Part shown: in pieces, positions 16,086 to 24,671 of the stretch
How the letters are laid out: each line of letters begins with the position of its first letter
How positions within the stretch are numbered: the first letter of the stretch is position 1
Assembly (NCBI RefSeq): GCF_002863565.1
Contig: NZ_PGUW01000011.1
Span: 124,001-188,000 of the forward strand
Source: Bacillus sp. V5-8f
GTDB lineage: Bacteria; Bacillota; Bacilli; Bacillales; DSM-1321
DNA: 64,000 nt
Direction: 5' to 3'
Notes under the pieces: generated by a model
What the model was told of the DNA's origin: nothing
Databases searched by the model: none
The model's input: the letters and a program-made list of their open reading frames with translations, nothing else
Made by a program: the position numbers and the translations under genes

Positions 16086-16547
16086 TTAAACTCTTAATGC
16101 AAAACATAATATTGATAATGTAAGCGGCAGGAGGATAATGCTCAAAAATCCAAAAAACAAAATCATGGTTTGGTCGCTGACAGCTGCAACAGGCAGGCTG
16201 CATATGGAAGGATCCATGGCGACCGCCCCCATCATGGTTCCCATAATTCCTCCAACTCCCCCGTTAAACAATCCAGCAATGAAAGACTGTGCGTTCACCA
16301 TGGCACCGAACACAGCGCCGACCCCAGTTCCTATAAATAAATTGACCCCGCTGATTACGAAAAAGTAGTCGGGAAATAACAAAAACAAATTCAGGGACGT
16401 CACAAGGCTTACGATTGTACTGGCGGTTACCGCGACAATGAAGGCGAAGCGATCGCTAAATAAGTATTTTGATTTATTTAGATATCGGTAGCTCAGGAAA
16501 CTTATCAAACTATTGATTATGAGTACACATATGAGGAAGAATTCCAT
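16086..16547 (-). CDS. Gly-rich membrane protein, paralogue of the upstream gene
   Basis: 153 residues with about four hydrophobic helices. The third and fourth are glycine-rich (GTGVGAVFGAMV and FNGGVGGIMGTMMGAV), a pattern that allows tight helix packing. The ATG at 16547 is chosen to match the paralogue's start and follows GGGAG at long spacing. It lies 22 bases after the related gene and both are divergent from the mnx-type operon. Function unknown; a membrane partner in metal handling is speculation from position. Confidence 0.72.
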   Translation of the reverse strand: MEFFLICVLIINSLISFLSYRYLNKSKYLFSDRFAFIVAVTASTIVSLVTSLNLFLLFPDYFFVISGVNLFIGTGVGAVFGAMVNAQSFIAGLFNGGVGGIMGTMMGAVAMDPSICSLPVAAVSDQTMILFFGFLSIILLPLTLSILCFALRV

Positions 16548-16569
16548 TTCCTTGGCTAGCTCCCATCTC

Positions 16570-16986
16570 TTACGACAATTTTGACGCGACAAGTACCATC
16601 CCGAATGAACCGATAATAAAGATTTCAAGGAATAACATAAAAGGCACGCTTCCAGAAGAAGCCGCACCAACCATTGGGGCCATGAGGCCCATCAAAAGCC
16701 CATTGATATACCCTGTCAAGAGAGTTTGGTAATCGAAAAGTCCTCCAAATAGTACACCGGTGAGAATCCCCGTTACAGCTGATGCTACCGTGATCTCCAT
16801 GTAATGCAATGGAAATTGGTTTATTAAAGCAACCCCTGTTCCCAAGGAGAGCCCTCCTCCGGCAATCATCGCAATATTCATGCCAAGGTGAAACCCGATT
16901 AATTTTCTTCGTTTAAATAGATACATATACGAAATAAAAGCAATCAGGAAATTAGCATAGAAAAAGATAGCGAACCATTGTTCCAT
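16570..16986 (-). CDS. Gly-rich membrane protein, first of a paralogous pair
   Basis: 138 residues, about four to five hydrophobic helices. A region LTGVLFGGLFDYQTLLTGY parallels GAVFGAMVNAQSFIAGLFN of the following gene, so the two arose by duplication. The ATG at 16986 follows AGGAGGG with good spacing. It starts about 110 bases from the divergent mnx-type operon, and the two units may share regulation. No family is recognised. I see no transporter signature or metal motif beyond the glycine pattern. Confidence 0.74.
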   Translation of the reverse strand: MEQWFAIFFYANFLIAFISYMYLFKRRKLIGFHLGMNIAMIAGGGLSLGTGVALINQFPLHYMEITVASAVTGILTGVLFGGLFDYQTLLTGYINGLLMGLMAPMVGAASSGSVPFMLFLEIFIIGSFGMVLVASKLS

Positions 16987-17041
16987 TTTATTTGATCCCT
17001 CCTGTGCCAGCATATGATGACATTCGCCTATGGGTGAATGC

Positions 17042-17068
17042 ACACCTTTTATGCCAATTCATATATTA
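17042..17068 (+). promoter_or_regulatory. Sigma-K-like promoter of the mnx-type operon
   Basis: AC (17042-17043), 16 bases, then CATATATTA (17060-17068) is a full match to AC-N16-CATANNNTA. It lies 29 bases upstream of the first gene of the operon. Late mother-cell expression agrees with MnxG being an outer-spore-layer enzyme in Bacillus sp. SG-1. Confidence 0.6.
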
Positions 17069-18642: not shown

Positions 18643-21600
18643 ATGATCAGGCGTTTTCATGTTGTCGCCATTCCAATTCGCATAGTGATTAACAACTTCG
18701 GCGATCATAATCCGGATGGAAGGATGTATGTATTAAAGGAAAATCTGTCGAAGGTAAAAGAACTCGTTGATAAAAATCCCTTTACACCTGTAGAGCTTGT
18801 TCAGCCGCTGACTATCAGGGCGAATGAAGGGGATATAGTGGAAATCCTTTTTGAAAATCGGCTTAACCTTGCCGCGGGTATGCATTTCCAGGAAGCAGAT
18901 TATAACGTTTTGACTTCTGACGGGGCAAATGTGGGATTAAATCCAAGCTCGTTAGCTGAGCCTGGAACAACGATCCTGTACACAATCAATACAACTAATG
19001 AAGGGATTTATTTTTTTACGGACCTTGGAAATGTGTCCAGTACAGAGCAGGGATCCAGCCTCCAAGCCCTTTTCGGTGCCCTGCTAGTTCAAAGAAGGGG
19101 TTCGTGGTGGACGGATCCCGTAACCGGCGGGCCGATTAATAGCGGAGTATATGCAGATGTCCATAATCCGTTTCTGCCTTCATTCCGGGAGTTTGCCTGG
19201 TTTTTCCATGATGAAATGGAAGTGGATGATATAACCGGAAACCGGCCGATCCACCCTGTGACCGGACAGGATGTGGATTCGTTTCACGGTGTGAATTATC
19301 GATTCGAGCCGCTATATAATCGGAAAAGGCTGATCGAAGAAGGTGTTGTCAGCCCTGATGTGGATGGGGAAGAGGTTCACCATGATTCTTGGGTGTTCGG
19401 TGATCCGGCGACACCGATCTTACGCGGCTACAGAGGCGACCCCACTTTGATACGGTTAATTCATGCAGGTGTTAAGGAAACACACACATTTCACTACCAT
19501 GTGCATCAGTGGCTAAAAGATCAAACGAATATCCATTCTGAACTTGTGGATACTCAGGCAATTAGCCCTCAATCGCATTACAATGTGCAGCCACTATATG
19601 GAATGGGGAGCCTGTCGGGAAGCATTGGGGATGTAATCCTCCACTGCCATTTGTACCCGCACTTTGAAGCTGGGATGTGGGGAATCAACCGTATATTCGA
19701 TACGCTCCAGGATGGCAGCCAATGCTATCCGAACGGCATACCGATTGCTCCGCTTCAGCCCTTGCCTGACAGGCCCTGTCCGCCAAAGCCAACGAAGGAA
19801 AAGCCCGGTTTTCCTAATTTTATTCCCGGTAAGGTTGGATGTAAGGCTCCAAGGCCGCCGCTGGGTATCGTCGGCGGCAGGGAAATGACAGAGCTTGAAA
19901 GAAATGCAGCCGTCCCGAATGCAAGGCCGGGAGCGGTTTTTACCGATTCATGCCTTGGAAATCCGGTGGTCGTAGAATTTGATGTCTCTGTGATTGAAAT
20001 GCCGGTCGTTTACAATAAAGCCGGCTGGAATGATCCAAAAGCAAGATTTTATGTACTCGATAAAGACCTTGATGATGTTCTCTCTGGAAGAAAAGAACCC
20101 GAACCTCTTGTGCTCCACATGGAAGCCGGATCTTGCATCAGGATGAATTTTACCAACCGGATGCCACATGTCCTGGATGGAGACGCGTTCCAGCTTGTGA
20201 CAAGAACCTATGAATGTGGATTTCATGTGCACTTCGTAAAGTTCGATGTCCTTGTTTCAGATGGTTCAAATGTAGGCTGGAATTATGACAGTTCCGTCCT
20301 GCCTGGTGAGACGATCCGGTATGAGTGGTTTGCAGAGTCGGAATTAAAGGCGTTTTTTTTCCATGATCACCTATTCCCTGTTTCTTACCAGCAACACGGG
20401 GTGTTTGGTGCAGGCTGTGTTCAGCCGCGTTTTTCCAAGGTAATGGATTCACGCACCGGTGAGGAGACAGATCGGGGGGCACAGGTTACCGTGGTGAATC
20501 CAATCATTCCTGATTACCGGGATTTCGCTTTATTTGTCCAGGATTTCACATTACTGTTCGATAAGGATGGCCGACCCATTGAACCGCCGGATTTTCCGGG
20601 TTCAACGGATGACCCTGGAATATTCGCCGTCAACTATAAAAATGAGCCACTGCAATTCCGCCTCGGCAAGGATTGCGACCCGGCTTATTCATTCAGCTCG
20701 TTTGTGGGAGGAGATCCCGTTACGCCGATTTTGCGCGCTTATGGGGGCGATCCGATTCGGGTTCGGCTGTTGCAGGGGGCCCATGAGGAATCCCACAGCT
20801 TCGTTATGCATGGTTTGAAGTGGAAATCGGAGCACCCGGATAACGATTCTGTCCTCAGGGACCAACAGCATATCGGAATTGCAGAGTCATTTACTCTTGA
20901 GTTGGAAATTCCAAAGGCAGGCGATTATTTGTGGGCGTTCGAGACGGAGGAAGATGTCTGGAATGGCACATGGGGATTGGTTCGAGCGTTTGACCACGAA
21001 GTGGATGACCTTATCCCCCTTACCGACCGGCCATGGCCTCCCCGCAGGAGAAGCGCCCTGCCTGAAGTAACTGGTGAACCGCCTTCCCTTGCCAATTCGC
21101 AAAGTACCTTGCCTCCTGATTTGGCAGATTTTCCTGAGGGCGCACCGATTCGACGCTTTCGTGTTGTCGCGTTCCAAACCCCGATTATTTATAATTCTTA
21201 TGGGGACCACGACCCTTATGGCATTGTTTTTGCCCTGGAAGAGGATGTGGAGGATATCCTGTCAGGAAGAAAGAATCCGGAGCCGCTTGTTTTGAGGGGA
21301 AATACTGGTGATCTTATTGAAGTCACCTTAACAAGCCGGTTAAGATTTGAATTATTCCCTTTCCCGGACGGCATCCATCCATATCCACCAGTGAAGGAAC
21401 AGGCCTTTTATCCTCCTTCAGTACGTATTTCAATGCACCCAAGCAGCTTGCTTGATTATGATGTGACGACATCAAGCGGGGATACTGTCGGGTTCAATCC
21501 GGATCAAACGGTAGGTCCCGGTGAAGAAATTACGTATCGCTGGCATGTCGGTGATGCAGTGGGCACCTGTGCTTTATGGGATATGGCGGATTTGCGAAAT

Positions 21601-22299
21601 CACCGTTCGTTTGGAACCTTTGGGGCGTTTATAGCAGAACCCCGCTTTACGAGCTACCTTGATCCAAACACGCTGAAGCCTGTCAACACTGGGACCAGTG
21701 TAATCCTTAGCAATCCATTGCTGCCAACTACTAGAGAGTTTGTTTTAATCATGCATGATGGGGTAAGGCTGGAAGATAAAGATCGAATATTGATTGTTGA
21801 TCCGATGGCAGGTATTATACCGGAACCGGAGGAATTCGACATAGCGGATACGTATGATAACGGTTCCCGCGGTTTTAACTATCGCACGGAAAGACTCATT
21901 AATCGCTATCGGGACCACCCTGTGTTAGCAGACTTATTCAGTTCAAAAGTATTCGGCGACCCAGCGACTCCTGTTTTTGAAGCATACGCGGGGGATCCGG
22001 TAACCGTGCGTCTTGCGAATCCATCAGAGCGCCGCAGGTCGCATACTTTTCACATTCACGGCCACCAATGGAAATTCAACCCGCTTGATGTATTTTCCCG
22101 GAATGTTTCATTCGTCGGCCATAGTGTCGCGGGAGCAACAGATGACTTATTCCTGATTGGTGGCGCGGGAGGAATTTTAAACTTCCCTGGAGACTACATG
22201 TATCGGTCGGGCAATATCCGCTGGGATATCGAGCAGGGGATGTGGGGAATCATCCGCGTTCATGATAGGGTTCAGCCGCACTTGCCATTACTAGAATGA
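18643..22299 (+). CDS. mnxG: Manganese-oxidising multicopper oxidase MnxG
   Basis: 1218 residues, matching the unusual length of MnxG (about 1217), which oxidises Mn(II) through Mn(III) to MnO2 on the spore surface. Three repeats of about 400 residues start near 3, 445 and 836 (each with F-x-V-x(5-9)-Y/N ... D-P-x-G/A), giving six cupredoxin domains. Copper motifs: HTFHYHVH (281-288) and HCHLYPHFEAGM (334-345) in domain 2; HVH (528-530) and HDH (574-576) in domain 3; HTFHIHGH (1134-1141) in domain 6. Domain 6 lacks a following HCH motif. There is no signal peptide, as expected for mother-cell assembly onto the spore. It follows two small-subunit genes in one operon. Confidence 0.93.
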   Translation: MIRRFHVVAIPIRIVINNFGDHNPDGRMYVLKENLSKVKELVDKNPFTPVELVQPLTIRANEGDIVEILFENRLNLAAGMHFQEADYNVLTSDGANVGLNPSSLAEPGTTILYTINTTNEGIYFFTDLGNVSSTEQGSSLQALFGALLVQRRGSWWTDPVTGGPINSGVYADVHNPFLPSFREFAWFFHDEMEVDDITGNRPIHPVTGQDVDSFHGVNYRFEPLYNRKRLIEEGVVSPDVDGEEVHHDSWVFGDPATPILRGYRGDPTLIRLIHAGVKETHTFHYHVHQWLKDQTNIHSELVDTQAISPQSHYNVQPLYGMGSLSGSIGDVILHCHLYPHFEAGMWGINRIFDTLQDGSQCYPNGIPIAPLQPLPDRPCPPKPTKEKPGFPNFIPGKVGCKAPRPPLGIVGGREMTELERNAAVPNARPGAVFTDSCLGNPVVVEFDVSVIEMPVVYNKAGWNDPKARFYVLDKDLDDVLSGRKEPEPLVLHMEAGSCIRMNFTNRMPHVLDGDAFQLVTRTYECGFHVHFVKFDVLVSDGSNVGWNYDSSVLPGETIRYEWFAESELKAFFFHDHLFPVSYQQHGVFGAGCVQPRFSKVMDSRTGEETDRGAQVTVVNPIIPDYRDFALFVQDFTLLFDKDGRPIEPPDFPGSTDDPGIFAVNYKNEPLQFRLGKDCDPAYSFSSFVGGDPVTPILRAYGGDPIRVRLLQGAHEESHSFVMHGLKWKSEHPDNDSVLRDQQHIGIAESFTLELEIPKAGDYLWAFETEEDVWNGTWGLVRAFDHEVDDLIPLTDRPWPPRRRSALPEVTGEPPSLANSQSTLPPDLADFPEGAPIRRFRVVAFQTPIIYNSYGDHDPYGIVFALEEDVEDILSGRKNPEPLVLRGNTGDLIEVTLTSRLRFELFPFPDGIHPYPPVKEQAFYPPSVRISMHPSSLLDYDVTTSSGDTVGFNPDQTVGPGEEITYRWHVGDAVGTCALWDMADLRNHRSFGTFGAFIAEPRFTSYLDPNTLKPVNTGTSVILSNPLLPTTREFVLIMHDGVRLEDKDRILIVDPMAGIIPEPEEFDIADTYDNGSRGFNYRTERLINRYRDHPVLADLFSSKVFGDPATPVFEAYAGDPVTVRLANPSERRRSHTFHIHGHQWKFNPLDVFSRNVSFVGHSVAGATDDLFLIGGAGGILNFPGDYMYRSGNIRWDIEQGMWGIIRVHDRVQPHLPLLE

Positions 22300-23609: not shown

Positions 23610-24671
23610 ATGAAAAGAAGGAAACGAAAAAAGGAAGGGGTTCGTTGTCCAGAAATTGTCTCACCAAATGCTCCGGATGATTTCTGTATTCCGGAAGCAT
23701 GCTGTCCCGTACGTTTCGATACTCCTAAATTTCCCGCCCCGACTTCATGCCTCCCCGATGAAGAGACTAAGGAACTTGAAGAAAGAATTAATGCTGCTAA
23801 TGAATTATTGTTGGACTTGGCTTTATCCAATGAGCGCCCTGAAGAAGGAATGATGCGGGCTTTTGAAGGGTTATCAGGACAGTGGGTTAAGCTAAAAATT
23901 GGCCAAGAAGATGAAGAAGAGGAACAAACAGAAAACATGCAGCTGAATGAAGTAATGCCACCCCAGGAAACCGGGGAAGTCCAACAAAGTAATTCTGGTA
24001 GAACAAAGAGAGCCCCATCATTTTCAGGTGGATCTCGTACCTCGGAAAATCAACAAGAAGAGGTAATGATGTCTTGTTCAACTGACAAATTAATTCTCGA
24101 CAATCCCGACATAGTTAAAAAGAAGCCTGCTCGAAAAGGTGTAAAAAGAAAAAATAAAATATATATCAGATGGCAAAAAGCTCCCAAACGGAAATCAAGC
24201 AGGAGGACACAGGAACAGGAATCACTAGAGCAAGAAATGGTACGCGACGAGAGTGGATTTTTGGCAGGGCGTGTAAAAGTTGTTGGCAAAGATTTCGTGC
24301 TGTTAAAGGATGGAAAGAAGGAATTCCTAATCCCATTCGCTCAAATACGATCTATCAAACTTGAAAATCGTTTCGTACACCGGCCCCATGAGCCAGAATT
24401 GCTTGATATCGATCCGTGCCTGCGAAGATCGTTAACATTTAATTTCGGGGAAACAGTTGCCTCCTCACCGGAATTAATCCGAATATTTTTCAGAATGAAT
24501 CTGAGTATGTTTTTATTGCTTCACTTATGGAAACCAATAAAGATCAAGCTTAAAGGTGAAGAAATTGAGGGTATTGTAGTTGAGGTTAGCCAGGAATCCA
24601 TAGCGATTCAAATGGCAGATGAAAAAATAAGAGAGGTGCCGTTCCATTCCATTTTCTTTATGAGAATGTAA
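23610..24671 (+). CDS. CotB-like coat protein with long charged linker
   Basis: 353 residues. Basic start (MKRRKRKKEG), a Cys-containing segment (CPEIVSP, then CIPEACCPVRF), an acidic and Ser/Gln-rich linker (about 100-160) and a Lys/Arg-rich stretch (165-200). Two beta-rich modules follow, paralogous to the gene at 17315: GRVKVVGKDFVLL, IPFAQIRSI, then LTFNFGETVAS and IEGIVVEVSQESIAIQM. Such a Ser/Lys/Arg-rich design recalls CotB. AGGAGGTGA precedes the ATG. With the 17315 gene it brackets mnxG, suggesting duplication around the oxidase. Confidence 0.75.
   Translation: MKRRKRKKEGVRCPEIVSPNAPDDFCIPEACCPVRFDTPKFPAPTSCLPDEETKELEERINAANELLLDLALSNERPEEGMMRAFEGLSGQWVKLKIGQEDEEEEQTENMQLNEVMPPQETGEVQQSNSGRTKRAPSFSGGSRTSENQQEEVMMSCSTDKLILDNPDIVKKKPARKGVKRKNKIYIRWQKAPKRKSSRRTQEQESLEQEMVRDESGFLAGRVKVVGKDFVLLKDGKKEFLIPFAQIRSIKLENRFVHRPHEPELLDIDPCLRRSLTFNFGETVASSPELIRIFFRMNLSMFLLLHLWKPIKIKLKGEEIEGIVVEVSQESIAIQMADEKIREVPFHSIFFMRM

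Follow-up and report, generated by a model that had tools for sequence, protein, structure and literature searches.

The open reading frame (ORF) at positions 18643-22299 of a 64,000-nucleotide stretch of Bacillus sp. V5-8f (contig NZ_PGUW01000011.1, positions 124,001 to 188,000; hereafter the window) is very probably a normal Bacillus-type mnxG, coding for the catalytic subunit of the spore manganese oxidase MnxEFG. Its copper ligands lie at the boundary of domains 2 and 3, and the motifs that are C-terminal in type come first in the linear sequence. An earlier note on this DNA, made from the sequence alone, had implied that this rearranged order is peculiar to the gene. This was not borne out: the order was found in all 100 and all 53 rows of two sets of MnxG sequences, and it is a family trait that has already been explained in print.

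Identification of the protein as MnxG

The ORF comprised 1218 codons and its translation of 1218 residues contained no internal stops. A phmmer search against proteins of solved structure matched chain A (MnxG) of Protein Data Bank (PDB) entry 9bxa across query residues 1-1218 (scores in Table 1). These aligned with residues 1-1215 of 9bxa_A, and the order of motifs was common to both proteins. The ranks below 9bxa_A were two-domain laccases, the best of which matched the domain 2 motifs at E 3.7e-11. In a large protein database, 1859 proteins matched at E 1e-10 or better among 7988 scored candidates; among the best 120 of these 1859, which were listed, the closest relative was a Peribacillus glennii protein with 98% identity, which suggests Peribacillus as the source of the window. 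The identity as MnxG, which the earlier note had drawn from length, architecture and neighbours, is thus borne out by a full-length match to a solved MnxG. The features of a Bacillus-type MnxG were found together: full-length homology, three two-domain repeats, a complete ligand set at domains 2/3, and mnxE and mnxF directly upstream, both matching partner chains of the same PDB entry.

The strain behind 9bxa is presumably Bacillus sp. PL-12. Divergence of the window protein from 9bxa MnxG was at the level of orthologues, and a Mesobacillus subterraneus protein (P0021), also of 1227 residues, was 73% identical to the query. Chain A of 9bxa has 1227 residues, as does Bacillus sp. PL-12 MnxG according to Vasin et al. 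(2013; PMC3600357). The MnxEFG complex itself is the subject of study in PMC5622069. A SpoIVA ATPase domain encoded in the genome scored 380.7 bits (cut-off 26.6), which makes sporulation plausible and no more than plausible; in the control, a signal was obtained in two of 14 genomes, above the cut-off in one.

Repeats and copper ligands

For self-alignment the protein was split at 440 and 832 into segments 1-440, 441-832 and 833-1218. Aligned with one another over 377-425 columns, the three repeats shared 30-32% identity (E 3e-42 to 7e-50). Pfam marked four stretches, three as Cu-oxidase_3 and one as Cu-oxidase_2, rather than giving six separate domain matches. The three repeats that had been proposed are therefore supported by self-alignment, and the six cupredoxin domains, two per repeat, are likely from the Pfam stretches, the full-length MnxG homology and the literature on six-domain oxidases.

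The copper motifs HTFHYH, HCHLYPHFEAGM, HVH and HDH and the domain 6 motif HTFHIHGH were located by script in the translated ORF, and all positions of the earlier note were confirmed. A further HVH at residues 286-288 overlaps HTFHYH. Conservation was assessed in an alignment of 100 MnxG rows, which held 98 of 121 proteins (query included) together with this genome's other two copies; the partial protein P0054 and 22 others, chosen by eye as near kept ones in score and length, were omitted. One protein is probably counted twice in these rows, P0052 probably being the copy C26 of this genome. Residues 281, 284, 286, 334, 335, 336, 340, 345, 528, 530, 574 and 576 were identical in 100/100 rows, so that the ligand motifs are not due to chance, and the claim of a complete motif set at the domain 2/3 boundary was borne out at 12 of 12 positions. 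The same 12 positions were identical in all 53 rows of a second MnxG set from whole genomes; the sets overlap and are not independent, at least 23 of the 53 rows sharing an 80-residue stretch with a row of the first set.

By the multicopper oxidase convention, which we take to apply here, these 12 residues would be four type 1 ligands (His, Cys, His, Met) and eight trinuclear His. In HTFHYH, H281, H284 and H286 would presumably be type 1, type 2 and type 3 ligands, respectively; in HCHLYPHFEAGM, H334 and H336 would be type 3 and C335, H340 and M345 type 1 ligands; in HVH, H528 would be type 2 and H530 type 3; and both His of HDH 574-576 would be type 3.

Architecture and the order of the motifs

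Two-domain laccases (4n8u, 3cg8) have chains of about 280-350 residues with one two-domain unit, and the HTFHxH and HCHxxxHxxxGM motifs of 4n8u align with those of MnxG. They work as homotrimers with three centres. By analogy, the six cupredoxin domains of MnxG would form a ring that offers three potential trinuclear interfaces, with three two-domain units fused in one chain and copper retained at one of three equivalent interfaces, the full ligand set being kept at the 2/3 interface only. No permutation would be needed. The linear order looks rearranged because the C-terminal-type motifs of unit 1 come before the N-terminal-type motifs of unit 2, whereas the layout within each unit is the usual one. 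Electrons from Mn(II) would pass to the type 1 copper of domain 2 (H281, C335, H340, M345) and cross a Cys-His bridge (C335 to H334/H336) to a trinuclear cluster with H284 and H528 at type 2 and H286, H334, H336, H530, H574 and H576 at type 3 copper. There O2 would be reduced to water, and Mn(III) and then Mn(IV) oxide would be formed. Ligand roles, geometry and electron path are inferred here.

That C-terminal-type motifs come first could also reflect a three-domain laccase that underwent true circular permutation or had its domains shuffled. However, most of the length of each repeat can be aligned with the other repeats, both other interfaces retain remnants of these motifs, and loss of two of three equivalent centres suffices to explain the order. 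Such an origin is extremely improbable, and circular permutation was rejected on the alignment of the repeats.

The placement of the copper centre is already described in print. According to Vasin et al. (2013; PMC3600357), all bacterial six-domain oxidases that they analysed carry the trinuclear site between domains 2 and 3 and the mononuclear (type 1) copper site in domain 2 alone, with residual ligands between domains 1/6 and, to a lesser degree, 4/5. From these oxidases the window protein showed no difference in the placement of the copper centre or in leftover ligands. Moreover, a paper of 2010 (PMC3039467) reports amplification of an mnxG fragment of about 700 bp; the forward primer lies in copper region D (HCHL) and the reverse primer in region B (HQQH), a pair that works only if region D precedes region B.

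Points against the assignment and comparison with other oxidases

Several points weigh against the assignment as a normal manganese-oxidizing MnxG. The NCBIfam equivalog NF041487 (copper_ox_MnxG) gave 309.3 bits against a cut-off of 3100, with its best stretch at 255-360. Residue 340 of 9bxa_A is Ala, whereas it is His in the window protein and in 100/100 aligned MnxG rows; chain A of 9bxa is probably a type 1 copper variant made by engineering (H340A) and so may lack an intact type 1 site. That residues 281-345 and 528-576 meet in space is a prediction from homology and literature. Likewise, Mn(II) as the substrate of the window copy and its location in the spore are presumed. Among the papers searched, none paired MnxG with H340A, none joined MnxEFG with cryo-electron microscopy and none joined MnxG with Peribacillus.

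As to the first of these points, the NF041487 profile has 1894 positions against 1218 residues in the window protein, and the two share a name, the multicopper oxidase class and a partial match. Pseudomonas-type MnxG proteins have 1941-1970 residues in a table of PMC3600357. The length of the profile fits these longer proteins, which suggests that NF041487 describes the Pseudomonas type. On its score against the cut-off a Pseudomonas-type MnxG was rejected, and the window protein is of the Bacillus type only. The database name MnxG thus covers two unlike proteins, which calls for caution.

Ceruloplasmin and other animal six-domain ferroxidases likewise have six cupredoxin domains, a comparison made by description. 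Their trinuclear centre lies between domains 1 and 6 and not 2/3 (PMC3600357). A centre of this kind was rejected for the window protein: domain 6 is without HCH, and in domain 1 H81-F-Q83 and T-D-L replace the two HxH.

Domain 6 and other remnant sites

The earlier note had stated that domain 6 keeps HTFHIHGH without an HCH partner. This proved correct, as the aligned stretch reads RSGNIRW and Cys or His occurred anywhere in residues 1183-1200 in just 2/100 rows. It had left open whether the motif is vestigial or a separate metal site. Of these, a partial remnant fits best, given that H1134 is kept in 94 and H1137 in 91 of 100 rows and HCH is gone; with these two variable His, a strictly conserved catalytic site was ruled out.

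We also considered whether the domain 6 motif and H81 of domain 1 might together form another mononuclear (type 2-like) site for Mn binding or electron transfer. H81 was found in 98/100 rows, and H81 and H1137, the equivalents of type 2 ligands, were both present in 89/100 rows and in 41/53 rows of the second set; H1139 and H1141 were invariant in the 100 rows. However, H1137 was replaced by T, R, N, M, F or V in 9/100 rows, by R in 4/47 main-branch rows and by T or A in all five readable rows of a divergent clade (see below), and H1134 varied as well. Moreover, the partner HxH of domain 1 (its second His is Gln in 93 and His in 2 of 100 rows) and the HCH of domain 6 are both lost, and the domain 1/6 remnant is already published (PMC3600357). 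A second site of this kind is unlikely. A remnant at domains 4/5, with H718 and H723 in domain 4 and H932 in domain 5 and, like H81, absent from the earlier note, was conserved in 100/100 rows (H932 is Phe in 1/53 of the second set), so that conservation of remnant His need not mean metal.

Three mnxEFG sets in one genome and a divergent clade

The genome contains three MnxG copies, that of the window and those termed C26 (69% identity) and C20 (61%), each with a separate mnxE and mnxF upstream. Three complete sets in one genome are the one mildly unusual feature. Among 41 genomes (this one, 24 of the same genus and 16 others of the order) mnxG was matched in five; within the genus it was found in 3 of 25 genomes, with three copies in each of those three. 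Order-wide, 55 of 397 genomes gave a match at E 1e-3, of which G286 and G291 were weak and short and G147 partial; at most two candidates were scored per genome, so that copies per genome are incomplete counts. Class-wide, 14 of 299 genomes matched, including three from the order (G000, G063, G138) and four weak ones (G451, G457, G475, G579). In G138 (C1:2336744-2340389) mnxG was split into frames of 182 and 1062 residues, through a broken gene or a sequencing error.

In a quick tree of the 53 rows (Shimodaira-Hasegawa-like approximate likelihood ratio test support, midpoint root), each of the genome's three copies fell in a different branch. That on C20 belonged to a clade of six (support 100) which also held the third copy of each of the two other carrier genomes in the genus. 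In this divergent clade H1137 is Thr or Ala in 5/5 readable rows, L044 being left out. The frame of L044 (G254:C1:181381-184551) ends early, at 1120 residues, and diverges from those of its relatives ahead of the domain 6 motif.

The accompanying MnxE and MnxF were compared in 49 rows, each the best match within 1.5 kb of an mnxG; L007 and L011 share one, which leaves 48 of 49 distinct, and related genomes are not independent in these counts. C44 and C92 of MnxE were both present in 32 and both absent in 17 of the 49 rows, a co-occurrence as would be expected for a disulfide. The pair was absent in 6/6 divergent-clade rows against 11/43 elsewhere, and MnxF carried HxD in 6/6 against 7/43 elsewhere, with HxP in one more. 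These patterns raise the idea of at least two old MnxG subfamilies that differ in extra metal chemistry, the main one mostly with H81/H1137 and the MnxE Cys pair, the divergent one keeping H81, without H1137 or the Cys pair, and with HxD in MnxF. We regard this as speculative and rather improbable.

With three copies in the genome (100, 69 and 61% identity to the window copy), each with MnxE and MnxF genes, and since sequence alone does not give a substrate, the window copy might have the MnxG fold yet serve another substrate (Fe(II), organics or copper), Mn(II) being left to another of the sets. This is distinctly unlikely: the window copy sits in the main branch of the tree, matches the 9bxa MnxG from end to end, and retains all copper ligands as well as the MnxE Cys pair (C44, C92).

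Neighbouring genes

The genes around mnxG are listed in Table 1. Their recurrence was surveyed in 8 genomes, which yielded 11 stretches around mnxG, two each from three genomes (this one included). The 181-residue protein encoded upstream of mnxE, which by its position only would be 'mnxD', had relatives of 45-65% identity in 8/11 stretches around other mnxG genes and lay 5' of mnxE in 6/11. It resembles in part the 353-residue protein encoded downstream of mnxG, as seen in cross-hits. The latter gave a weak match to the Pfam RimP C-terminal SH3 family (22.1 bits, under the cut-off of 26.3), and both proteins are possibly SH3-like. The Pfam scan gave no family for MnxE, MnxF or the 181-residue protein.

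Two small putative membrane proteins are encoded at 16086-17043 on the minus strand, opposite to the mnx genes, and recur at other mnx loci; the one at 16570 had relatives in 7/11 stretches. They had no Pfam match above the cut-off and no NCBIfam match. The survey of 11 stretches gave no tie of the flanking genes (16086-17043, 17315, 23610) to a known function.

Table 1. Genes and ligand motifs of the mnx locus and the further mnxE-F-G sets of the genome (window positions unless a locus is named; rows are those of the 100-row alignment).
Feature	Position	Strand	Evidence
mnxG, six-domain multicopper oxidase, 1218 residues	18643..22299	+	phmmer 9bxa_A 2172.6 bits, E 0; Pfam Cu-oxidase_3 and Cu-oxidase_2
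HTFHYH, residues 281-286	19483..19500	+	three His in 100/100 rows; aligns with HTFHMH of two-domain laccase 4n8u
HCHLYPHFEAGM, residues 334-345	19642..19677	+	five presumed ligands in 100/100 rows; aligns with HCHVQSHSDMGM of 4n8u
HVH, residues 528-530	20224..20232	+	both His in 100/100 rows; aligns with HIH of 9bxa_A
HDH, residues 574-576	20362..20370	+	both His in 100/100 rows; aligns with HDH of 9bxa_A
HTFHIHGH, residues 1134-1141, likely domain 6 remnant without HCH partner	22042..22065	+	H1134 in 94, H1137 in 91, H1139 in 100, H1141 in 100 of 100 rows
mnxE, 99 residues	17909..18208	+	phmmer 9bxa_B (MnxE) 132 bits, E 8.2e-38
mnxF, 126 residues	18242..18622	+	phmmer 9bxa_E (MnxF) 121.2 bits, E 2.9e-34
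Gene upstream of mnxE, 181 residues	17315..17860	+	relatives at mnxG loci; Pfam none
353-residue protein downstream of mnxG	23610..24671	+	relatives in 10/11 mnxG stretches, some weak
Further complete mnxE-F-G set, same genome	L004 6003-10438	-	MnxG 69% identical to that of the window
Further complete mnxE-F-G set, same genome	L005 7186-11503	+	MnxG 61% identical to that of the window

Implications

The analysis clears up a likely misreading: C-terminal-type motifs coming first are the normal state of MnxG, and what is known of MnxG is unchanged by this gene. Two leads only are worth keeping: the divergent subfamily and the finding of three sets in one genome. Three complete MnxEFG sets from three branches in one genome provide natural variants for comparing extra metal sites. 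If the proposed subfamilies were real, the extra copper or manganese sites would differ between the Mnx complexes of a bacterium that has three MnxEFG sets.

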